Assembly: GCA_937775205.1 (NCBI GenBank) | Contig: CALKBX010000009.1 | Span: 1 to 64,000 of the forward strand | Length of the DNA: 64,000 nucleotides | Direction of reading: 5' to 3' | Source: an uncultured Verrucomicrobiae bacterium | Lineage (GTDB): Bacteria; Verrucomicrobiota; Verrucomicrobiia; Limisphaerales; UBA1100 | Shown here: positions 10,633-45,259 of the stretch, piece by piece | Layout of the letters: the number at the start of each line of letters is the position of its first letter | Numbering within the stretch: the first letter of the stretch is position 1 | Translations under genes and position numbers: made by a program | Notes under the pieces: generated by a model | Seen by the model: only the letters and a program-made list of their open reading frames with translations | Told to the model about the DNA's origin: nothing | Database searches by the model: none

Positions 10633-13600
10633 ATGAAAAAGGCACTCCTCCTTGGATTTTTTGCGGCACTCGTGGCCGCGTTTGACGCTTCGGCGCAGCA
10701 GCTTCCGCGCGCGCGCATCACCAGCATTTTTCCCGCGGGCGGTCAGCAAGGCACTCGCGTGGACGTCACCATCACCGGAGGCGATCTTGATGGCGCAAAG
10801 CAGCTTTTCTTTTCGCACAAAGGCATCACCGCCGCGCAAAAGAAGGACGACAAAGGCAACGTCGTGGCCAACCAATACACCGTCGCCATCGCCAAGAATG
10901 TGACCGTGGGAATTTACGACGTGCAAGTCGGCGGCGGCCAATTTGGCATCTCGAATGTGCGCGCCTTCGCGGTCGGCGATTTGCCGGAGGAAAAATCCAC
11001 CGCCGGCACATCGGCAGACAAGGCGATGGAAGTGAAGCTCGGCACCACCATCAACGGCCAGACCATCTCGCGCAATTACAGCTATTTTAAAGTGACGCTG
11101 GAAAAGGGCCAGGGCATCCTCGTCGAGTGTCAAGCGGCGGACATCGATTCCAAGATGGCGCCGGTGCTCGTGCTCAAGGACGCTAATGGACTGGAACTCG
11201 AACGCAATCGCTTCGGCGAGCCACTCGATTTCACGCCGCTCAGCGATGGCGATTATTTCGTGGCTCTGCACGACTTCACCTACGGCGGCGGCGCGGAGCA
11301 CGTTTATCGGCTCACCATTTCGCAACGCCCGTACATCGACTTCATCATCCCACCCGTTGGCAAGCCCGGCAGCAACGGCAAATACACCGTGTACGGCCGC
11401 AACCTCCCCGGCGGACAGGATGCCGGAATTGCGCTCGGCGGCAAGCCGTTGCAGAAAAAAGGCGTGACCATAGCACTGCCCGGCGATGCGGCCTCGCGCC
11501 TGAAGATTTCCAGCAGCACACCGGTCGGCCCTGTGGCCGCGGGTTTTGACGGCATCGACTACCGCCTTCCCAGCCCCGCCGGCGCGTCGAATCCCGTCCG
11601 CATTCACTTCGCCGAGAGCGCCGTCATTGCCGAGGCCACTGCCGATAACAATCGGCCCGAGAGCGCTCAGAAAATTTCTGTGCCGTGCGAATACGTCGGC
11701 CAGTTTTACCCGCGGCGCGACCGCGACTGGGTGACTTTCGAAGCGAAGAAAGGCGACATCTATTGGGTGGAGATCATCAGCGAACGCCTCGGCGCGCCCA
11801 CGAATCCGTTCTTCCGAATTCAGCGCGTCACCAAGGACGACAAGGGCGTGGAAAAAGTCAGCACCGTCAAGGAGGTGCAGGACAGCCCAGTGAACATCGG
11901 CGGCTCCACGTTCAACACATCTTCCATCGACCCCTCCTTCCGCTTCGTCGCGCCGGATGACGGCACCTATCGCATTTTGCTATACGACCTTTACAGCCGC
12001 GGCAGCGCCGACAGCCTGTACCGCCTGTCCATCCACAAGGAGGTGCCCGACTTCCGTCTCGTGGCCATGCCCGAGGGCGCGCTCGCTATTGCGAACCAAC
12101 CCGTGCCCATGCCCACCGGCTTCCTCCGGCGCGGCCAGGTTTTGCCTATAAAAGTGATGGCATTTAAACGCGATAATTTTAACGAACCCATCGAGCTGTC
12201 CATCGCTGGTTTGCCCGCGCACCTCACCGCCAGCAAAGCCACCCTCGCCGCCGGCCAAAACAGCGCGCTCATTATGCTCAGCGCAAAGACCAACGCTCCC
12301 AACTGGTTCGGTAACATCACCATTATCGGCAAGTCTAAGATTGCCGACAAACCTGTCACTCGAACAGCGCGTAACGCTGGCGTGTCCAGCATTGTTTACG
12401 ACAGCACCTCAAAACGCAGCAATGTTCGCGCGCGCCTGACCAACACGTTGCAGTTGCAGGTCACCGACCAGGAAACCATCCCCGTCGCCATGGCCCCCAA
12501 GGAAAACAAGGTTTATGAGCACTCCGTCTTCGGTCAGTTGAAGATTCCGTTTACCATCAAGCAGGACGCCGCCTTCAAGGCCGTGGACAAGAAAGTGAAG
12601 TGCCTTGGCCATAGCTCGCTGTCAAAATTCAAGGATGTGACCTTTGCCAAAAACAAGGATGAGGGAACACTCGACCTGAATTTAAACACCTACAAGCTTC
12701 CGGTTGGGGAGCACGTGCTCTATCTGCGCACACAGGTGAAAGGCAAATACAGCCGCGTCCCGAAGGCGAAGATTGACGCTGCCAAAGAGGAGCAGAAGAA
12801 AGCTGACGCGGTTGCTGTCGAAGCCGACAAGGTGGCCAAGGCTGCCACAACTGAACTAAACACAGCCAAGACCGTCGCCACCAAGGCCGCCACCGACAAG
12901 ACCACTGCCGACAAGATGGTGATTGCCGCAAAGGCCGCGCAGGCGACCGCGCAAAAGGCGTTTGATGGCGCCACGGCTACTGCCAAGGCCTCCGTGACCG
13001 TTGCCGCGACCGCCAAGGTCAACGCCACCAAAATCGCGACTGCATTGACCACCGCGACCAAGGACGCCACCACCAAGCGTACTACCGCCACAACGACTAA
13101 GAAGGCCCACGATGGACTTATCACGACAAAACAAAAGCCCGCGCAAACCAAGGCGACCGCCGCCGCGACGGCACTGACCAAGGCGCAGACCGACAAGACC
13201 GCCGCTGACAAGGCGTTGACCACGGCGAATGCCGAGGTCGCCAAGGCCAAGACTACTTCAGACACCGCCGAGGTTGCCGCCAAGGCTGCTGAGGCTCTAT
13301 CCAAGAAAATCGCCGGCGACGCCAACAAGAAGAAGGAAGAAAAGGACAAGGTCGCCAAGGGCGCCGTCACCAAGCGCGCCGCCGTCACGACGGCGAAGAA
13401 GGTGCACGACGATCTCGTCACCACAAAACAAAACCCCGCGCAAACCAAGGCGAGCGCCGCCGCGACGGCGCTGACCAAGGAGCAGACCGACAAAACCGCC
13501 GCTGACAAGGCGTTGACCACGGTGAATGCCGAGGTCGCCAAGGCTAAGACTGCTTCGGACACCGCCGAGGTTGCCGCCAAGGCCGCTGAGACGGTTACGG

Positions 13601-14289
13601 CCACTGCCAAGACCACCGACGCCAAGGCCAAGGTCAACCAAACTGCCGCCGACAAGAAGGTGGTTGATACGAAGAATGCCACCACCACCGCCAAGACGGC
13701 TCTCGACAAGTCCGTTGCTGCTACAAAAGCCGGCGAGATCAAGGCCGCTGCTGTTGCCAAGGTTGCCACCGATACTAAGGTCAAGCAGGACGCCGCACAA
13801 AAGAAGAATGATGACCTCGCCGCAAAGAAAAAGGCTACCGATACCGCCAAGGCCGCCGCCGCCGCGAACACGAAGAAGCTCACCGATACTGGCAAGCCGA
13901 AGGACATCACTGCGACATTCTTCAGCACGCCAATTACCGTGAAGGTCACCGCCGCGCCCATTGATCTGAAGCCCGTCGCTGCCAGCCAAGTGAAGCAGGG
14001 TGCGAAGGTGGAGTTCACCGTGAATCTAGACCGCAAGTATGGCTTCGCTGACCCCGTCACCATCGGTGTCGCGCTGCCTAAGGGCACCGCCGGCCTATCC
14101 ATCAGCAAGCTGACCATTGCCAAGGATCAGAAGACCGGGAAGTTCACCATCACCGCCACCGACAAGGCTACAGTCGGCGATCTCGCGTTGAACATCGAGG
14201 CGACCATGAAATTGCAGAATCAAACCATCAAGGTAACCCAGTCGCTGAAGCTGAAGGTCATCGAGGTGAAAAAAACCGCAAAGAAATAA
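10633..14289 (+). CDS. Secreted pre-peptidase C-terminal (PPC)-domain-like protein with long Ala/Lys/Thr-rich helical region
   Basis: Signal peptide; ITSIFPAGGQQGTRVDVTITGGDLDGAKQLFFSHKGI; repeated PPC-like segments (YFKVTLEKGQGILVECQAADIDSKMAPVLVLKDANGLELERN); low-complexity KTAADKALTTANAEVAKAK region. Confidence 0.8.
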   Translation: MKKALLLGFFAALVAAFDASAQQLPRARITSIFPAGGQQGTRVDVTITGGDLDGAKQLFFSHKGITAAQKKDDKGNVVANQYTVAIAKNVTVGIYDVQVGGGQFGISNVRAFAVGDLPEEKSTAGTSADKAMEVKLGTTINGQTISRNYSYFKVTLEKGQGILVECQAADIDSKMAPVLVLKDANGLELERNRFGEPLDFTPLSDGDYFVALHDFTYGGGAEHVYRLTISQRPYIDFIIPPVGKPGSNGKYTVYGRNLPGGQDAGIALGGKPLQKKGVTIALPGDAASRLKISSSTPVGPVAAGFDGIDYRLPSPAGASNPVRIHFAESAVIAEATADNNRPESAQKISVPCEYVGQFYPRRDRDWVTFEAKKGDIYWVEIISERLGAPTNPFFRIQRVTKDDKGVEKVSTVKEVQDSPVNIGGSTFNTSSIDPSFRFVAPDDGTYRILLYDLYSRGSADSLYRLSIHKEVPDFRLVAMPEGALAIANQPVPMPTGFLRRGQVLPIKVMAFKRDNFNEPIELSIAGLPAHLTASKATLAAGQNSALIMLSAKTNAPNWFGNITIIGKSKIADKPVTRTARNAGVSSIVYDSTSKRSNVRARLTNTLQLQVTDQETIPVAMAPKENKVYEHSVFGQLKIPFTIKQDAAFKAVDKKVKCLGHSSLSKFKDVTFAKNKDEGTLDLNLNTYKLPVGEHVLYLRTQVKGKYSRVPKAKIDAAKEEQKKADAVAVEADKVAKAATTELNTAKTVATKAATDKTTADKMVIAAKAAQATAQKAFDGATATAKASVTVAATAKVNATKIATALTTATKDATTKRTTATTTKKAHDGLITTKQKPAQTKATAAATALTKAQTDKTAADKALTTANAEVAKAKTTSDTAEVAAKAAEALSKKIAGDANKKKEEKDKVAKGAVTKRAAVTTAKKVHDDLVTTKQNPAQTKASAAATALTKEQTDKTAADKALTTVNAEVAKAKTASDTAEVAAKAAETVTATAKTTDAKAKVNQTAADKKVVDTKNATTTAKTALDKSVAATKAGEIKAAAVAKVATDTKVKQDAAQKKNDDLAAKKKATDTAKAAAAANTKKLTDTGKPKDITATFFSTPITVKVTAAPIDLKPVAASQVKQGAKVEFTVNLDRKYGFADPVTIGVALPKGTAGLSISKLTIAKDQKTGKFTITATDKATVGDLALNIEATMKLQNQTIKVTQSLKLKVIEVKKTAKK
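13096..13600 (+). repeat. Degenerate direct repeat with 297-bp (99-codon) offset inside the PPC-like gene
   Basis: KQKPAQTKATAAATALTKAQTDKTAADKALTTANAEVAKAKTTSDTAEVAAKAAE is repeated 99 residues later as KQNPAQTKASAAATALTKEQTDKTAADKALTTVNAEVAKAKTASDTAEVAAKAAE; DNA is near-identical (gcgcaaacc at 13141 vs 13438). Confidence 0.9.
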
Positions 14290-14310
14290 CCGACAATTTA
14301 AAATAGAACC

Positions 14311-17300
14311 ATGAAACAGACCCGAATCCTCATAGTGGGGGCCGCGCTTGTCGCCGGCCTGTTGGCCAACAGCGCTGATGCCGCCAAGAAAGGCCCGCTG
14401 CCCGTCTCTGAAATCAAGCGCGCCAAGCCGGTCGATTTCCAAAGCGAAATCCTCCCCTTCCTCCGCGCCAACTGTCTCGCCTGCCATAACCAAACCAAAG
14501 CCAAAGCTGATCTCATCCTCGAGACGCCGCAGGACATCCTCGAAGCCGACGCCGTCGTTCCCGGCAAGCCGATGGAAAGCATCCTTTTCCAACTCGCCGC
14601 GCACCTCGACGACCCCCCCATGCCGCCGCCCGAAAACAAAGCCTCCGCCAAGTCGCTCAACCCCCAGCAGCTCGGCCTGCTCAAACTATGGATTGCCCAA
14701 GGCGCGAAGGGCGTCGTCAAGGCCACGCGAACCGTCAACTGGCAGCCGCTGCCCGAGGGCCTCAATCCCATTTACTCCGTCGCCATCACGCCCGACGGCC
14801 AATACGCCGCCGCCGGCCGCGCTAACCAAATCTTCATCTACCACGTCCCGACCAAAAAACTCATCACCCGCCTCACCGACCCCGAGCTGCTCAAGGACAA
14901 CAAATACAAAAACGGCGTTAGTCATCGCGACCTCGTCCACTCGCTCACCTTCAACCAAACCGGCGACCTCCTCGCCAGTGGCGGATACCGCGAAGTAAAA
15001 CTTTGGCGCCGTCAACCCGTCAAAGCCCTACGCAGCTTCCCGCTCAACACCGCCGACGCCATCATCGCGCTCAGTCCCGACGGCCAGTCACTCGCTGTTG
15101 CCGAGGCCAACAACATCCGCCTCATCAACCCCAACACCGGCGCCGCCATCAAGACCCTCGCCGGCCACAAGATGCCCGTCAGCTACGTCGCCTTCTCCCC
15201 CGACAACAAGCAACTCCTCTCCGGAGCCGCCGATGGCACCTACCACATTTGGACAATCGCCGATGGCAAATACATCGCGCCCAAGCTCCAGCTCGTCAAG
15301 CCTTCCAAAATCACCGCCGTCACCTGGACCACCGACGGCAAACTCCTCGTCACCGCCCACGAAGACAACCTCATCCGCTCATGGGATCTCGCCACCGCGA
15401 AAACCATTAACGCTACCGTCGCCCAAGCCCTTGTCGCCGCCAAAAAAACCGCGACTGACTCGCTCAAGCTCTTCACCGCCGCCGACCTAACCGTCAAAGC
15501 CGCCGTCATCAAAGCCGCCGCCGCAAAAGCTATCGCCACCAAAGCCGCCACCGCATTGACCGCCGCGACGAAGGACGCCGCCACCAAGAACACCGCCGCC
15601 ACGAATACGAAGAAGGCGTACGACACCGCGATTGCCCAAAAGCAAAAACCCGCCGAGACCAAGCTCGCGGCCGCCAAAATGGCAACCACCAGCGCCACCA
15701 CCGCAAAGACGAATGCAGACAAAGCGCTCACCACCGCGAAGGCCGCGACCGCCGACGCCAAGAAGCCGTTCGACATCGCCGATGCCGTCGCCAAGACCGC
15801 CGAAGCGAAAGCAAAAATAATCGCCGCCGACGCCAACAAAAACCCCGCCGAAAAACAAGCCGCCACGAAAACCGCCACCGACAAACGCAAACTTGCGAAC
15901 ATCGCCAAGACCGCATTGACACAAATACAGGCGAAGGAAAAAATCGCGCAAACCGCAGTGACCACCGGCGCCACAAAACTCACCCAAGCGCAAGCCGCGC
16001 AAAAGGTCACCGCGACCGCATTGACCAACGCGACCGTCGCTGTCGCCAAAGCCAAGACAACTTCCGACAACGCCGAGAAAGCTGCCAAGACCGCCGCGAC
16101 AACAGCGGCCACCACCAAGACCGCCGACACGAAAGCGAAGGCCGATGTGCTCACCACCGCCAAAGCCATCGTCGACACCAAGAAAATCGCCGCCGCTGCC
16201 AAGGTGGAATCGGACAAGACGAAGGCCACCGAGACCGCCGCCGCCAAGGCCGGCCTCAAGCCGCACAAGGAAATGAAAGGCCACAGCCAACCCATCCTCG
16301 CCCTCACGCGTTTGCCGAATCATCCCACGCAGATTCTCTCCGGCAGCCGCGACGGCACTGTCCGCCATTGGGACGCCAACACCGCGCAAGCCATCCGCAG
16401 TATGGCCCACGGCGCACCGGTTTTCGCCATCGCCATCAGCCCCGATGCCACCAAGTTTGCCTCCGCCAGCGAAAACAAAACCGCCAAAATCTGGACCGCC
16501 AGCAACGGCAAACAAATCGCCGAGCTGCGCGGCCAACGCGACCTAAAAATTGACCTCGCCAAAAAAGAACGTCACCTCGCCTTCGCCAAGCGCGAGGTCA
16601 CCTATCACACCAACAATCTCAAGGCAAAAACCACCGCGCGAACGAAGGCCGCCGAGCGGTTAAAGAAATCCGATGAAGCCAAGAAAAAAGCCGAGGGAAT
16701 GCCCATCGCCTCGAAGAAAAAAATTCTCGATGACGCTCTCGCCGAAAAGAAAAAGAACGAGGACGCTTACAACAAGCTCAAGGCCGACTACGACGCCGAG
16801 GTGAAAACCTTCCCCGAATTGGACACGGTGGCCAAGACCTCCGAAGCCGCCGCCGCCAAGGCAAAAACCGCCGCTGCCAAGCCTAACGCCGATAAGGCTA
16901 AGGTCGCGCAGGACGCCGCCGCGAAAATCGCCACCGACAAGCGCATGGTCGCCAACGATTCCAAGATCAAACGCGACAAGCTCAACAAAGACCAAGCCGC
17001 CGCGAAGAAGACGCTCGACGCCACCGCCAAAAAAGTTACCACCGCCGACACGGAATACAAAAAACTGGAGGAGCCGCGCGTGCAGGCCGTCAACGAATTC
17101 AACCTCGCCACCAAGGCCAAGGCAAAATCCGACACCGAGGTGGCCAAGGCCGACGCTGGCAAGAAGGCCGCCGACACCGATTCCAAGGCGCGCGAGACCG
17201 CCGTCACCACCACCAAGGGAACCGTAACCCAAGCCGAAAAACCCATCCGCGCGATTGCATTTTCCGCCGACAGCCAAATGGTTTTCACCGGCGGCGACGA

Positions 17301-18186
17301 TATGAAAATCCACACGTGGGCCGCCACCACCGGCCAGCCCCTCGAGTCTTTCAGCGGCCACACGGGCGCGGTGATGGCGCTAGTTTTTAATGGCGAGAAA
17401 TTCATCTCCGCCAGCGCCGACAAGACCGTCCGCGTCTGGAGCCCCGGCATCGAGTGGAAACTCGAGCGCACGCTCGGCATCGGCGACAACAACTCACCGC
17501 TCACCGACCGCGTGAACACCATCGATTTCAGTCCAGACGGTAAACAAATCGCCACCGGCAGCGGCGAGCCCAGTCGAGGCGGTGAAGTGCAAATCTGGAA
17601 CCTCGCTGACGGCAAGCTCATGAAAAACTTCGCCGAGGTTCACAGCGACAGCGTGCTCGGTCTCGAGTTTTCCAAGGACGGCAAATACATCGCCAGCGCC
17701 AGCGCGGACAAATTCGTGAAAGTCACCGACATCGCCACCGGCAAAGTGGTGCACAGCTTCGAGGGACACACCCACCACGCGCTGGGCGTCAGTTGGCTGC
17801 CGCACGGCCGCCAACTCGTCAGCGTCGGCGCAGACAAAAGCATCCGCCACTGGAACTTCGAGGCCGGCGAACGCATCCGCCAGCGCACCAATTTTGGCAA
17901 GGAAGTCACCTCCATCCACTACGTCGGCCTCAGCGAACAGGCGGTCGTCACCTCCGGTGACAAGACAGTGCGCCTCATCAACAGCAGCAACCTCAACGAC
18001 GCCCGCAGCTTCAGTGGCGGCACCGATTACATGTACGCCAGCGCCGCCACCCCCGACGGCAAAGTCATCCTAGCCGGCGGCCAAGACAGCACCCTCCGAA
18101 TCTGGAACCTAACCAACGGCCAATCCCTCGCCATCTTCGAAGCCCCGAAACCTCCGGTGGAGGAAGAGAAGGCGGAGAAAAAATAA
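14311..18186 (+). CDS. Planctomycete-type cytochrome (PSCyt1-like) + WD40 beta-propeller protein with two large helical inserts
   Basis: FQSEILPFLRANCLACHNQTKAKADLILET...PMPPPENK; WD40 motifs such as ITRLTDPELL...SLTFNQTGDLLASGGYREVKLW and VMALVFNGEKFISASADKTVRVWSP; K/A/T-rich blocks interrupt the WD40 series. Confidence 0.9.
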   Translation: MKQTRILIVGAALVAGLLANSADAAKKGPLPVSEIKRAKPVDFQSEILPFLRANCLACHNQTKAKADLILETPQDILEADAVVPGKPMESILFQLAAHLDDPPMPPPENKASAKSLNPQQLGLLKLWIAQGAKGVVKATRTVNWQPLPEGLNPIYSVAITPDGQYAAAGRANQIFIYHVPTKKLITRLTDPELLKDNKYKNGVSHRDLVHSLTFNQTGDLLASGGYREVKLWRRQPVKALRSFPLNTADAIIALSPDGQSLAVAEANNIRLINPNTGAAIKTLAGHKMPVSYVAFSPDNKQLLSGAADGTYHIWTIADGKYIAPKLQLVKPSKITAVTWTTDGKLLVTAHEDNLIRSWDLATAKTINATVAQALVAAKKTATDSLKLFTAADLTVKAAVIKAAAAKAIATKAATALTAATKDAATKNTAATNTKKAYDTAIAQKQKPAETKLAAAKMATTSATTAKTNADKALTTAKAATADAKKPFDIADAVAKTAEAKAKIIAADANKNPAEKQAATKTATDKRKLANIAKTALTQIQAKEKIAQTAVTTGATKLTQAQAAQKVTATALTNATVAVAKAKTTSDNAEKAAKTAATTAATTKTADTKAKADVLTTAKAIVDTKKIAAAAKVESDKTKATETAAAKAGLKPHKEMKGHSQPILALTRLPNHPTQILSGSRDGTVRHWDANTAQAIRSMAHGAPVFAIAISPDATKFASASENKTAKIWTASNGKQIAELRGQRDLKIDLAKKERHLAFAKREVTYHTNNLKAKTTARTKAAERLKKSDEAKKKAEGMPIASKKKILDDALAEKKKNEDAYNKLKADYDAEVKTFPELDTVAKTSEAAAAKAKTAAAKPNADKAKVAQDAAAKIATDKRMVANDSKIKRDKLNKDQAAAKKTLDATAKKVTTADTEYKKLEEPRVQAVNEFNLATKAKAKSDTEVAKADAGKKAADTDSKARETAVTTTKGTVTQAEKPIRAIAFSADSQMVFTGGDDMKIHTWAATTGQPLESFSGHTGAVMALVFNGEKFISASADKTVRVWSPGIEWKLERTLGIGDNNSPLTDRVNTIDFSPDGKQIATGSGEPSRGGEVQIWNLADGKLMKNFAEVHSDSVLGLEFSKDGKYIASASADKFVKVTDIATGKVVHSFEGHTHHALGVSWLPHGRQLVSVGADKSIRHWNFEAGERIRQRTNFGKEVTSIHYVGLSEQAVVTSGDKTVRLINSSNLNDARSFSGGTDYMYASAATPDGKVILAGGQDSTLRIWNLTNGQSLAIFEAPKPPVEEEKAEKK

Positions 18187-39584: not shown

Positions 39585-41060
39585 ATGCTTGCTGCTGCGC
39601 CGCCAATTTCCTCAATTGATTGGGCGGTCATCTTTGTTTACCTCATCGGCATCATCGCGCTGGGCGTTTGGCTCGGGCGCGGCCAAAAAACCACACGCGA
39701 TTATTTTCTCGGCGGACGCGAGCTGCCGTGGTGGGCGGTGGCGTTTTCCATCGTGGCCACCGAGACCAGCGCGCTGACTTTCATCGGCGTGCCCGCGATG
39801 GCGTATGGCGGCAATTTGATGTTCATCCAAATCGTGATCGGCTACGTGATTGGCCGCATCGTGTTGGCGGTGGTGATGGTGCCGTTGTATTTCAAAAAAG
39901 AAATCTACTCGCCCTACGCGCTCATCGGCAACGCCTTCGGCGGCGGCGCGCACAAGACGGCGGCCGTAATGTTTCTCATCGTCGGCACGTTGGCCGCCGG
40001 CGTGCGCGTGTTTGTCACCTGCATCCCCTTGCAGCTGATGCTCGATTGGCCCGTGTTGCCGGCCATCCTGCTCTTTGTCGGCCTTTCGCTGGTGTACACT
40101 TATGTGGGCGGATTGAAAGCCGTGGTGTGGACCGATGCCGCGCAATTCATTTTGTTTGTGGCCGGCGGATTGTTCGCGCTGTTTTACATCCCAACGCTTA
40201 TCGACGGCGGCTGGAGCGGCGCGATGGAAACCGCCCGCGCCGAAGGCAAACTCGAATGGCTCAACACCCAATTCACCCTCGCCGCGCCGTACAATCTTTG
40301 GATGGGCATTCTTGGCGCGGGTGTGTTTGTGCTGTTCACGCATGGCGTGGATCAACTGGTGGCGCAGCGCGTGCTCGCCTGCCGCACCATCGCCGATGGC
40401 CGCAAGGCGTTGGTGTTTTGCGCCGCCGTGATTTTGCCGATGATGCTGCTTTTCCTAATGGTCGGCGTGTTGCTGTGGGTGCTTTATCAGCAAACGCCCA
40501 TCCCCATCGACATCCCCGAAAATTCGTTTGGCAAAAAACAAACCGACTTTGTGTTCCCCATCTTCATGCTCACCCAAGCGCCGGTGGGCGTGAAGGGCTT
40601 GCTGCTCGTCGGCATCTTCGCCGCCGCGATGTCGTCGGTGAGTTCCGCCCTCAGCGCGTTGTCGTCCGTCACCGTGATGGATCTCGGCTTCGCAAAAAAG
40701 GAAGCGAGCGACAGCCACAAACTCAAACTCAGCCGTTGGACAACTTTGTTTTGGGGGGCGATGCTCATCGTGGTGGCCTTCGCCAGCCGCGAAGTGGAAT
40801 CGGTAATGAACGCCGCCTTCAGCCTCGTGGGCCTCGCCAGCGGCGGCTTGCTCGGCGGCGTGCTGTTGGCGCTCACTATAAAGAAGGGCCGCGGCACGCC
40901 CATCATCCTCGGAATGGCAGTTTCGTTGATGGCCATGCTTGCCATCAAGTACGGTTTGAAAGATGCCATTCACTGGCCGTGGTACACGATGATTGGCTGC
41001 GGGATCACACTGGTGGTGACAATGTTGGCCAATGCCTTCTATGGGGCACGGGAAAACTAG
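39585..41060 (+). CDS. Sodium:solute symporter family protein
   Basis: SIDWAVIFVYLIGIIALGVWLGRGQKTTRDYFLGGRELPWWAVAFSIVATETSALTFIGVPAMAYGGN; SSVSSALSALSSVTVMDL. Confidence 0.93.
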   Translation: MLAAAPPISSIDWAVIFVYLIGIIALGVWLGRGQKTTRDYFLGGRELPWWAVAFSIVATETSALTFIGVPAMAYGGNLMFIQIVIGYVIGRIVLAVVMVPLYFKKEIYSPYALIGNAFGGGAHKTAAVMFLIVGTLAAGVRVFVTCIPLQLMLDWPVLPAILLFVGLSLVYTYVGGLKAVVWTDAAQFILFVAGGLFALFYIPTLIDGGWSGAMETARAEGKLEWLNTQFTLAAPYNLWMGILGAGVFVLFTHGVDQLVAQRVLACRTIADGRKALVFCAAVILPMMLLFLMVGVLLWVLYQQTPIPIDIPENSFGKKQTDFVFPIFMLTQAPVGVKGLLLVGIFAAAMSSVSSALSALSSVTVMDLGFAKKEASDSHKLKLSRWTTLFWGAMLIVVAFASREVESVMNAAFSLVGLASGGLLGGVLLALTIKKGRGTPIILGMAVSLMAMLAIKYGLKDAIHWPWYTMIGCGITLVVTMLANAFYGAREN

Positions 41061-41203
41061 GTGGGTTTGTCATTGCCGAGTCGTTCCAACCCTTGGTGCG
41101 CGACTGATAATGGCAACGGCTCTCACCAGCCAACAAGGTGGCCGCTGGCAAATGGGATAATGATGTTGGCAGTTAACCTAATTTCAAAAATAAACTAACC
41201 CGC

Positions 41204-42247
41204 TCAGTCCTTCCTGGGGAAGGGCCTCAGACCCAGAAGCATTTCAGATTTTTCGGTGAGCGGTTTGGCGGCGAAGCTCTTATCAGTGAACTCAGCGAGG
41301 CTGCTTCCGACTTGGGCATAGACAGTCTGGCGGTCCTGACTGGTGTCGATTTCAACACACAGGTTTTTGCTCCTGAAGAGCTCGACGGTGGGCAGTGTCT
41401 CTGACTTGAAAGTGTCGAATCTCAGTTTGATGCTCTCAACATTATCGTCACTTCTGCCGGTAAAGTTGGCGCGGCCCAAAATGCGCTGCTCGAGAACGGC
41501 GTAGGGGCACTCAAGGTAAAGCATTTTTGGGAGTTCAGTTTCCCGGCCGAAGATCTCATACCATCCTTCAAGATTGGTCAGGGAGCGGGGAAAGCCGTCG
41601 AGGAGAAAGTTGGTCTTTCCCGTGGTTCGGGTGGCGGTTTCCATCGCGTTTTTGAGCAGAGTCACAACGATTTCGTTGGGCGCCAGCTTTCCAGCTGCGA
41701 GGCATTCTTCGATGATGTTGGCACTCGGCCCGCCCGCCTGACGCTCGGCGCGGAGCAGTTCTCCGGTGGAGAGGTGTATCCAGCCGAGTTGAGTCTCGGC
41801 AAGCTCGCACATGGTTCCTTTCCCGGTGCCGGGTCCTCCTAGAACAAAGACGACATTGGGCTTTGGGCAGGGTTGTCTCGGGTCACAGTGGTGGAGTACG
41901 ACCTTGGGGGCGGGCGCCACTCCCATTTTGTAGACGTTCCACTCCCGGTCCGTCGGCGGCAGCTCGTCCTCGCAGGTGGTTTCGTAGGCGAGATGACCGT
42001 CCAAACGGGAGATTCTCCAGGATTGGTAACTGTTGGAGTATGAGAGAGAGGGGCTTCTGGCCGCGGCGCCATCGGCGCGATCCCACGCCATCTTGCCGTT
42101 CCAGTAGCCGGAACTCGACACGGTTCCTGATTCAGATTTGGCGGGAGGCGCCGTTGAGGGGACGAAGAGTCCGTCAACTTCGGGAAGACCGGATCCCGAT
42201 ACTTCGATAAAGAGGGTGTTGGGTCTGAGTTCGTTTGTTTCGGTCAT
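41204..42247 (-). CDS. Eukaryotic-type UMP-CMP/adenylate kinase with N-terminal extra domain
   Basis: VVFVLGGPGTGKGTMCELAETQLGWIHLSTGELLRAER; NFLLDGFPRSLTNLEGW; GRSDDNVESIKLRFDTFKSETLPTVELFRSKN. N-terminal VSGSGLPEVDGLFVPS...SWRISRLDGHLAYE...LPPTDREWNVYKMGVAPAPKV. Confidence 0.85.
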   Translation of the reverse strand: MTETNELRPNTLFIEVSGSGLPEVDGLFVPSTAPPAKSESGTVSSSGYWNGKMAWDRADGAAARSPSLSYSNSYQSWRISRLDGHLAYETTCEDELPPTDREWNVYKMGVAPAPKVVLHHCDPRQPCPKPNVVFVLGGPGTGKGTMCELAETQLGWIHLSTGELLRAERQAGGPSANIIEECLAAGKLAPNEIVVTLLKNAMETATRTTGKTNFLLDGFPRSLTNLEGWYEIFGRETELPKMLYLECPYAVLEQRILGRANFTGRSDDNVESIKLRFDTFKSETLPTVELFRSKNLCVEIDTSQDRQTVYAQVGSSLAEFTDKSFAAKPLTEKSEMLLGLRPFPRKD

Positions 42248-42305
42248 GATTTTTTCCTGATAACTGACTGTTTTGGAGATGGCATCAAATGAGCGGGGAA
42301 TTAAC

Positions 42306-43193
42306 TTACAAACTCAAGTGCCCGAGCGCAAGCAGGCCGTAAAATGTATATTCGCAATCCAGATAATCATCCGACCAATGGCCGTGGAAACCGCCGGTGG
42401 CGTTCCAGAGGGTGTCCACAAAATCCAAACAGCGCTCGGTTTCTTCCTCGGAGAGCCGCACATCCAACGCGGCCAGCGCGTGGAGGGTGGTGGCGGTGGA
42501 GAGGAGGTCAGGTATCGGTGCTCCGGGTACGGCGACGAAGCCGCCTTGCGGATGCAACCGATCGCGCAGCCATTGGCCGACTTCGGCGTTGATGGGCAGG
42601 TGTAGATTATTGAGAAGCACCACCGCGCCAGCGGTGGGGTTGGTGGAGCCGATGGGGAGGTTGGGATGATTGTTCCACGCGTGATCGGGCGTCTCCAGTT
42701 TTTTCAGGCTCTGCAAAATGCGCAGCGGTTTGGGCGGCAGCTTGCCCATATCCTGATACGCACCGAGTGCGAGGAAGGAACCGTACGCCGTACCGTGTTC
42801 GCGTTTCAGATTATTGTCCCAACCGCCGCACGGTTTGCGGAATGCTTCGAGCCGCTTGAGCAGCGCCGCGCGCAAGCCCTTCGGCATTCGGTCTTTTCCA
42901 AGCGAACCCCAACAGCGCGTGAGGCAACTGAGGTGCACAAGGTCCAGCCCATCGCCATCAGCAAAGGTGGCCAGAAATTTTTCAACCGCATCGAGATCCG
43001 GCTCCGCCTGAAACACCGCCAACGCATCCAGCCCGAACACAGTATAATAAAGGTCACTCTGCCCCGCGCGATCCTTGAAGCCACCATCGGCATTTTGCTG
43101 CCCCCGAAGAAATTCCTGAACCAACTCCGCCGCTTCCCCCAAAACCGTCGGCGCCACCCGCGCCACTTGCAGCATTTCCAGACGAAGGCTCAT
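42306..43193 (-). CDS. Prenyltransferase/squalene-oxidase-repeat (geranylgeranyl-transferase beta-like) protein
   Basis: QQNADGGFKDRAGQSDLYYTVFGLDAL; KPCGGWDNN; HPQGGFVAVPGAPIPDLLSTATTLHALAAL; NATGGFHGHWSDDYLDCEYTFYGLLALGHL. Confidence 0.82.
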   Translation of the reverse strand: MSLRLEMLQVARVAPTVLGEAAELVQEFLRGQQNADGGFKDRAGQSDLYYTVFGLDALAVFQAEPDLDAVEKFLATFADGDGLDLVHLSCLTRCWGSLGKDRMPKGLRAALLKRLEAFRKPCGGWDNNLKREHGTAYGSFLALGAYQDMGKLPPKPLRILQSLKKLETPDHAWNNHPNLPIGSTNPTAGAVVLLNNLHLPINAEVGQWLRDRLHPQGGFVAVPGAPIPDLLSTATTLHALAALDVRLSEEETERCLDFVDTLWNATGGFHGHWSDDYLDCEYTFYGLLALGHLSL

Positions 43194-43417: not shown

Positions 43418-45169
43418 TTAGCGTGCCACTTCCGTGCCGTTGCTGTTTTGGGCGCGGACTTTTTCTAGCTCGCTGATTTCCTGGACTTCGCTGCACCAGC
43501 CTTTGACGACGGTGTCGTTGAAAATTTTGCCGATGACGCGGCGGAGGAGGCCTTTGAGGTTGGCGTTTTCCAAATCGGTCAGCGAGCGGATGGCGAGTTC
43601 TTTATAAGTGAGCTGCAAATCCTCGGCGCGTTTGACGGCTTTGAGGTCGAGGTACCATTGCTCGATTTGCGCGAAGGTGACGCCTTCGGGCAATCGCCGC
43701 CGCCAAACTTCGGCGAGCTGTTCCTTTTGCTCGCCCTTGGCTTTTTCGTGCGCGATGGCGAGCAGCAGCGTGGGGCGCAGGCCGGCGAGGTCGTTGGTGT
43801 CGCCTTCCTCGCCGAGGTCGGAGAGGTCGTCGCGAATTTGATAGGCGATGCCGAGGTTTTTGCTGTACTCGCCGAGCACTTCGGAAACTTCCTCGTACTT
43901 GCCGAGGTCGGCGGAAATGGAGCCGAGCCGCAGGGCGACCTCGAATGCGGGCGCGGTTTTTTGCCGGAAAATATCGAGCACCTGCACGGACTTGAGCGGC
44001 GCGGGGTTGCGCTGCCAAACCAGCTCCGCGCCTTGGCCGCGGCAGAGGTGGCGCTGGCCATTTGCTGCTACTTGCAGCATCGCGGCGCGTTGTTCGGCGG
44101 AGAGGGTCGTTTCGCCGAGGAGGCGATAGCCTTCGCCGATAAGGAGGTCGCCGACGTTGAGCGCCACGCCGAGGCCGTGTTCTTCGTGCAAAGTTTTTTC
44201 ACCGTAACGCTCGGCGTCTTCGTCCTCGATGTCGTCGTGGATGAGTGAGGCTTTGTGGAAACACTCGACGGCGACGGCGACTTTTTTGAGGTCGTCGGGA
44301 ACGGCTTCCGTGGCATCATCGCGCAGCGCTTGATACGCCGCCACGCTGAGGAAGGGCCGCCAGCGTTTGCCGGCGCGCGCGAGCCAAGCGCGGCCGATGG
44401 CTTCGGTTTCGCCTTCGCCTTCGCCCATGATTTCCTCAAGTGACTCGGGCTTGAACCAAGTTTCCACTTCGTCGTGCAGCCCGCTCAAATCCAAGCGGCG
44501 CGTGTGGTCGTCGCTGGTGAGATAAATATAATCCCAAACCCAATCTTCATCGACGGCGGTGTCGATGCAATCATCCTGCAGCAACGGAATCGCCACGCCC
44601 GGCACGGCCGCCGCTTCCATGTACGGGAAGGCGCGCTCGAGCACGGGGATGCACGCCACGCCGACGATGGCATCAATCTTGCCGGTTTGGATGAGGCTCA
44701 TCACGATTGCACTGCCCTCGGCGACGAGCGCCGCGTAGCCGAGTTTCTCCGCCTCGTATTCCAAATCCTGAATGCTGCACAGGCCGCAACTTTTGCAAAG
44801 CAAACCAAACTCATCAAACGGTGCGGGGCACTTGGCCTCCACGCGGAGACATTTGGGGACCATTAACAGGCGGCGCTCGAAGGGCACGGCGGCGAGCGTT
44901 TCGCGCCAAAGTTCGTTGTTGATGAGAATGCCGATGTAGTCGCGGTAAATTTCCTTGGTGCCGAGCGCGGCGACCAATTCGTCCGCGTGCACTTTGAGGT
45001 CGTCCATCGGCACCGGCGGCACGAGGGTTTGCTCGGCCACATAATGCCGCACCTCGCGCAGAATGGTTTCGCGCTCTTCGCGGGTTTGCGGAATATTCTC
45101 GCGCGGCGTCCGCGGCTTGCGCTGCGGAACAACTCGTGGAATTTTCAATGGCGCGCTGGCAGTGGTCAT
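43418..45169 (-). CDS. DUF116 domain fused to polyprenyl (trans-isoprenyl) diphosphate synthase
   Basis: DUF116-like KCPAPFDEFGLLCKSCGLCSIQDLEYEAEKLGYAALVAEGSAIVMSLIQTGKIDAIVGVACIPVLERAFP. Synthase motifs GKRWRPFL, LIHDDIEDED, AYQIRDDLSDLGEEGD. Confidence 0.88.
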   Translation of the reverse strand: MTTASAPLKIPRVVPQRKPRTPRENIPQTREERETILREVRHYVAEQTLVPPVPMDDLKVHADELVAALGTKEIYRDYIGILINNELWRETLAAVPFERRLLMVPKCLRVEAKCPAPFDEFGLLCKSCGLCSIQDLEYEAEKLGYAALVAEGSAIVMSLIQTGKIDAIVGVACIPVLERAFPYMEAAAVPGVAIPLLQDDCIDTAVDEDWVWDYIYLTSDDHTRRLDLSGLHDEVETWFKPESLEEIMGEGEGETEAIGRAWLARAGKRWRPFLSVAAYQALRDDATEAVPDDLKKVAVAVECFHKASLIHDDIEDEDAERYGEKTLHEEHGLGVALNVGDLLIGEGYRLLGETTLSAEQRAAMLQVAANGQRHLCRGQGAELVWQRNPAPLKSVQVLDIFRQKTAPAFEVALRLGSISADLGKYEEVSEVLGEYSKNLGIAYQIRDDLSDLGEEGDTNDLAGLRPTLLLAIAHEKAKGEQKEQLAEVWRRRLPEGVTFAQIEQWYLDLKAVKRAEDLQLTYKELAIRSLTDLENANLKGLLRRVIGKIFNDTVVKGWCSEVQEISELEKVRAQNSNGTEVAR

Positions 45170-45259
45170 GCAAATAAATACCGGTGAAACCGGCGGTGTT
45201 GTGCGTGCGGCAGTTTCGCGAATGTGAGACGCCAATGCGAGCGGAATGTTTCAAGCAAG

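Follow-up and report, generated by a model that had tools for sequence, protein, structure and literature searches.

The kinase gene and its surroundings

An intact open reading frame with an ATG start lies on the minus strand at 41204..42247 of the window, by which we mean the whole 64,000-nucleotide stretch of DNA analysed here, and encodes a protein of 347 amino acids (the coordinates include the stop codon). Its extent is supported by full-length homologues as well as by the reading frame, and every motif that an earlier note on this DNA had quoted is present in the translation. The protein falls into three parts: an N-terminal all-beta domain (residues 1-125, 41873..42247), a UMP-CMP-type NMP kinase domain (residues 130-317, 41297..41860) and a C-terminal tail (residues 318-347, 41207..41296), all on the minus strand. 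The tail, which carries an LLGLRPxP motif, is the least conserved region of the family alignment. The codon usage of the gene is ordinary for the window. Its GC3 stands at 0.671 where the window averages 0.695 (SD 0.077), and its codon likelihood ranks eighth lowest among 37 window ORFs, so that the less biased codon usage noticed earlier is a weak signal at best.

The neighbours are ordinary as well. A sodium:solute symporter gene (39585-41060, plus strand) stands on one flank and a prenyltransferase-like gene (42306-43193, minus strand) on the other, and a polyprenyl synthetase with DUF116 and a ferredoxin-like gene are also nearby. The polyprenyl synthetase and DUF116 occupy a single 605-aa ORF (43421-45235) that adjoins the prenyltransferase-like and ferredoxin-like genes. 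Elsewhere in the window, positions 12001-18000 show a strong AT skew (0.33-0.41) together with a negative GC skew, and contain two very long ORFs of 1218 and 1291 aa. PADLOC found no match to the kinase protein and none of note among its window neighbours. We considered an operon or defence-island context and set it aside, there being no recurrent neighbours and no PADLOC match to the protein; with no operon context, the neighbours point to no pathway. As adk, pyrH and cmk are all encoded elsewhere in the host genome, the kinase of the window is accessory in this organism.

Comparison of synteny within the genus of the window places a gain/loss site at 41014..42308. The kinase gene is found at this same site in three genomes of the genus (G000, G005 and, as a partial copy at a contig end, G006). 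In the sister species (G001-G004) both flanking genes are kept and the kinase gene is absent, with about 70-460 bp of unrelated intergenic sequence instead. No flanking repeat was seen at the site in this genus. The site is thus a clean single-gene gain or a repeated loss, and the gene appears to have reached the genus as a ready-made bacterial gene. Contamination or a chimeric contig, for which the earlier note had asked that contig continuity be checked, is ruled out by the occurrence of the gene at the identical site in separate genomes of the genus, G005 and G006 among them, and by a contig of 193,654 bp.

The kinase domain

Residues 130-317 constitute a complete P-loop NMP kinase. The Pfam family ADK (PF00406) matches residues 135-295 with 120.4 bits, well above its gathering cut-off of 26.8. 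The best NCBIfam model is UMP-CMP kinase (TIGR01359), with 180.2 bits over residues 132-317; this falls short of the curated threshold, 207.6 bits, and family members in the Planctomycetota score 178-197 bits to the same model. The adenylate kinase models of NCBIfam give at most 135 bits, the bacterial (d)CMP kinase model TIGR00017 gives only 13 bits, and the PyrH model TIGR02075 has no match at all. The best sequence matches in the PDB are the UMP/CMP kinases of Dictyostelium (1qf9), yeast (1uky) and human (1tev), at 138-148 bits, followed at lower scores by AK1 (121 bits) and bacterial Adk (86 bits or less). In the full-length predicted model (mean pLDDT 86), a Foldseek search ranks the yeast and Dictyostelium UMP kinases first, with TM scores of 0.88-0.91 to 1uky and 2ukd over the kinase. 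The earlier assignment of the core to the eukaryotic UMP-CMP type, rather than to bacterial Cmk or Adk, thus holds, and the sequence comparisons make the eukaryotic type of this kinase well supported.

The active site is intact. It comprises the P-loop GGPGTGKGT, Arg166, Arg221, Asn225, Arg259, Arg265, Asp267/268 and Arg276, and in an alignment to 1qf9, 1uky and 1tev the P-loop pattern GGPGxGKGT and the catalytic arginines and aspartates are all conserved. Asn225 is invariant across the family and is likewise asparagine in the Dictyostelium and human UMPKs, while AK1, yeast Ura6 and all 18 bacterial Adks compared have glutamine at the equivalent position. In UMPK structures this is the position that selects the base, and asparagine is the pyrimidine-type residue there.

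With the eukaryotic UMP-CMP kinases (Dictyostelium UmpK, yeast Ura6 and human CMPK1), the window kinase has in common the fold, the short lid, the P-loop and the catalytic arginines, at 38-41% identity, whereas the family to which it belongs has bacterial hosts, an extra N-terminal domain of 125 residues, a tail of about 30 residues and a TIGR01359 score under the cut-off. The bacterial short-lid adenylate kinases (PF00406) are of the same superfamily and fold, but they have glutamine in place of Asn225, show 24-29% identity to the window kinase in the bacterial structures listed, and fall on another branch of the tree. Bacterial Cmk and PyrH would overlap with the window kinase in the reactions presumed for it, the phosphorylation of CMP and UMP, but they have no detectable sequence similarity to it, and the host encodes both separately.

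The N-terminal domain

The N-terminal domain is more strongly conserved than the catalytic one, with a mean column identity of 85% over 53 sequences compared with 81% for the kinase. In a comparison with one close relative, dN/dS is about 0.06 for the N-terminal domain and about 0.13 for the kinase, and dN itself is also lower in the former. These values bear out the reality of the domain, which seems to matter for function independently of the kinase.

Searches for described relatives of the domain returned little. The window sequence has no Pfam family, and the N-terminal domains of other members gave weak, scattered Pfam matches at E 0.04 or worse. No PDB sequence matched at E<=10. As a stand-alone structure the domain is modelled with middling confidence (pLDDT 67), with the same order of beta-strands as in the full-length model, and with a model of this mid-range confidence a fold search of the PDB and a viral structure library found nothing below E 0.8. 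Matches to the CPAP G-box and to a radial spoke fold were non-significant (E 0.8 or worse) and were dropped. The earlier note had likened this region to a W-rich repeat of algal and protist proteins; in Pfam, the PDB and the viral structure library, the region has no sequence or fold match to any domain already described.

The domain also occurs as a free-standing protein. Two gammaproteobacterial genomes, Nitrincola sp. A-D6 and G917, have ORFs of 124-128 aa consisting of the N-terminal domain only (L165:5203-5577, minus strand, 124 aa, in Nitrincola; L164:1504-1887, minus strand, in G917), each a paralogue beside a full-length kinase in the same genome. Both proteins stop where the domain ends, with the residues SDPR followed by the stop codon. 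They are each other's closest relatives (support 99/95) and form a separate lineage, and the full-length copy of G917 groups with Marinobacter. The pair is 86% identical in protein sequence, with a dN of 0.09 and saturated dS, which argues for a maintained free-standing protein and not a random truncation. The presence of such proteins alongside the full-length gene suggests that the N-terminal domain probably acts alone.

Distribution of the two-domain family

A genome scan recovered 80 loci, nearly all full-length matches, at 71-93% identity; the peptide patterns used in the scan favour close relatives, and the lower bound is partly a product of the method. Among the 77 aligned rows are 36 from Planctomycetota, 17 from Verrucomicrobiota, 17 from Pseudomonadota and three from Myxococcota, with one each from Hydrogenedentota, Acidobacteriota, Thermodesulfobacteriota and Bdellovibrionota. 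The phyla interleave on the family tree, with 16 changes of phylum label where the minimum is seven. The carriers include many MAGs and also isolates of Halomonas, Marinobacter, Rhodopirellula, Stieleria and Adhaeretor, and a copy in Comamonas is borne on a plasmid. The family is scarce, being present in two of 390 genomes of the phylum of the window, eight of 394 Planctomycetota genomes and two of 394 genomes in the order to which Nitrincola belongs. Over about 70 family loci we found no recurrent neighbour gene, and outside the coding ends no k-mer is common to many loci, as a flanking repeat or insertion signature would be. On this evidence the gene is one of a rare, patchy family that is passed from bacterium to bacterium across eight or more phyla. 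Literature searches found no published account of the two-domain family.

Some copies are degraded. In G405, a genome from the class of the window, a frameshifted and truncated copy (L169:3323-4152) has the appearance of a decaying gene. Adhaeretor mobilis has a 31-residue remnant of the start of the gene (L167:4425-4517) about 450 bp upstream of an intact copy; a small ORF of unrelated sequence separates the two.

A precedent for a mobile kinase of this general sort is the dNMP kinase of Pseudomonas putida and phage T4, which has been placed with the T4-like dNMP kinases and is likewise a nucleotide kinase that has moved horizontally between bacteria (PMC10653934). That enzyme belongs to another kinase group, and it replaced an essential gene (PMC10653934), whereas the host of the window keeps its housekeeping enzymes.

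Possible functions of the fused protein

We would give odds of roughly two in three that the protein is an accessory kinase for pyrimidine NMPs, eukaryotic UMP-CMP in type, with a conserved beta domain as its fusion partner. The most likely function, as far as sequence can indicate one, is that of an auxiliary UMP/CMP kinase whose N-terminal domain would bind a ligand or partner. The kinase would move phosphate from ATP onto UMP or CMP, and perhaps dCMP, and could in this way provide a bypass or salvage route outside the control of PyrH. The N-terminal domain may bind a ligand or a partner and thereby recruit or gate the kinase, and it could carry out this binding on its own. The whole two-domain unit would travel as one gene, mostly among marine and saline bacteria.

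The weight might instead lie at the other end of the protein, with the main function (sensing, binding or conflict, for example) in the N-terminal domain, the kinase serving for output or energy coupling, and the gene behaving as a defence-like or selfish accessory. The greater conservation and lower dN of the N-terminal domain, its free-standing occurrence alongside the full-length gene, and the patchy gain and loss with decayed copies (the G405 frameshift and the Adhaeretor remnant) are all in keeping with this arrangement. We think it rather unlikely, however, as PADLOC recognises neither the protein nor, to any notable extent, the genes around it in the window, the roughly 70 loci have no recurrent neighbours, and purifying selection acts strongly on the kinase too, whose active site is intact.

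Origin of the kinase half

The kinase tree was built from 26 family members, 18 bacterial Adk-type proteins and four eukaryotic PDB sequences, only three of them UMPKs. The two-domain family forms a single clade (support 100/100) on a long stem of 1.6 changes per column. The family and the eukaryotic UMPKs group together (99/95) to the exclusion of AK1 and the bacterial Adks, and in the best tree the family is nested inside the eukaryotic UMPKs. AU tests on a thinned set reject neither a tree that puts the family beside the bacterial Adks (p 0.28) nor monophyly of the eukaryotic UMPKs (p 0.10), and for this reason we regard eukaryotic descent as likely but unproven, well supported as the eukaryotic type of the kinase is. 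An ancient eukaryotic source for the kinase core is plausible; the kinase half was probably taken once from a eukaryote, long before the lineage of the window gained the gene. A phage collection yielded weak matches to the kinase half, at 23-32% identity, and no N-terminal domain.

The non-rejecting AU tests and the sample of three eukaryotic UMPKs leave some room for a family that arose in bacteria long ago, or that is a kinase of UMP-CMP type which branched off early, and whose likeness to the UMPKs would reflect common ancestry or convergence on pyrimidine specificity and not transfer from eukaryotes. We consider this unlikely, given the nesting of the family in the best tree and the support for its grouping with the UMPKs, and given that 394 Planctomycetota genomes contain no stand-alone UMPK-type kinase with a bridging score, between 178 and 149 bits.

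The earlier note had the kinase type right in proposing eukaryote-to-bacterium transfer, but the transfer into this aquatic lineage does not stand, as both domains nest deep in one bacterial two-domain family, an outcome that the note itself had named as refuting its proposal. A direct and fairly recent gene transfer from an alga or protist is therefore very improbable and already contradicted for the lineage of the window, despite the eukaryotic type of the kinase, the single-gene insertion within the genus and the long stem above the family, as the nearest relatives recovered all come from bacteria, eight or more phyla of them, with 71-93% identity across the two domains, and codon usage is ordinary.

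Implications

A kinase type usually regarded as eukaryotic circulates in bacteria as a single-gene unit, across eight phyla or more, and in the host examined here it does so despite the presence of the host's own UMP and CMP kinases. It is joined to an N-terminal domain that lies outside every described family, is steadier than the catalytic domain and stands alone in some genomes. Taken furthest, these features might describe a mobile gene for regulation, sensing or conflict that has spread across phyla, made of an undescribed, self-acting N-terminal domain and a eukaryote-derived UMP-CMP kinase, with free-standing paralogues that modulate the full-length enzyme; we hold this to be quite doubtful.

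An accessory pyrimidine kinase with a conserved partner domain would add to current domain libraries an N-terminal domain that they lack, and it would offer a clean case in which to ask what makes bacteria gain a redundant nucleotide kinase time and again.
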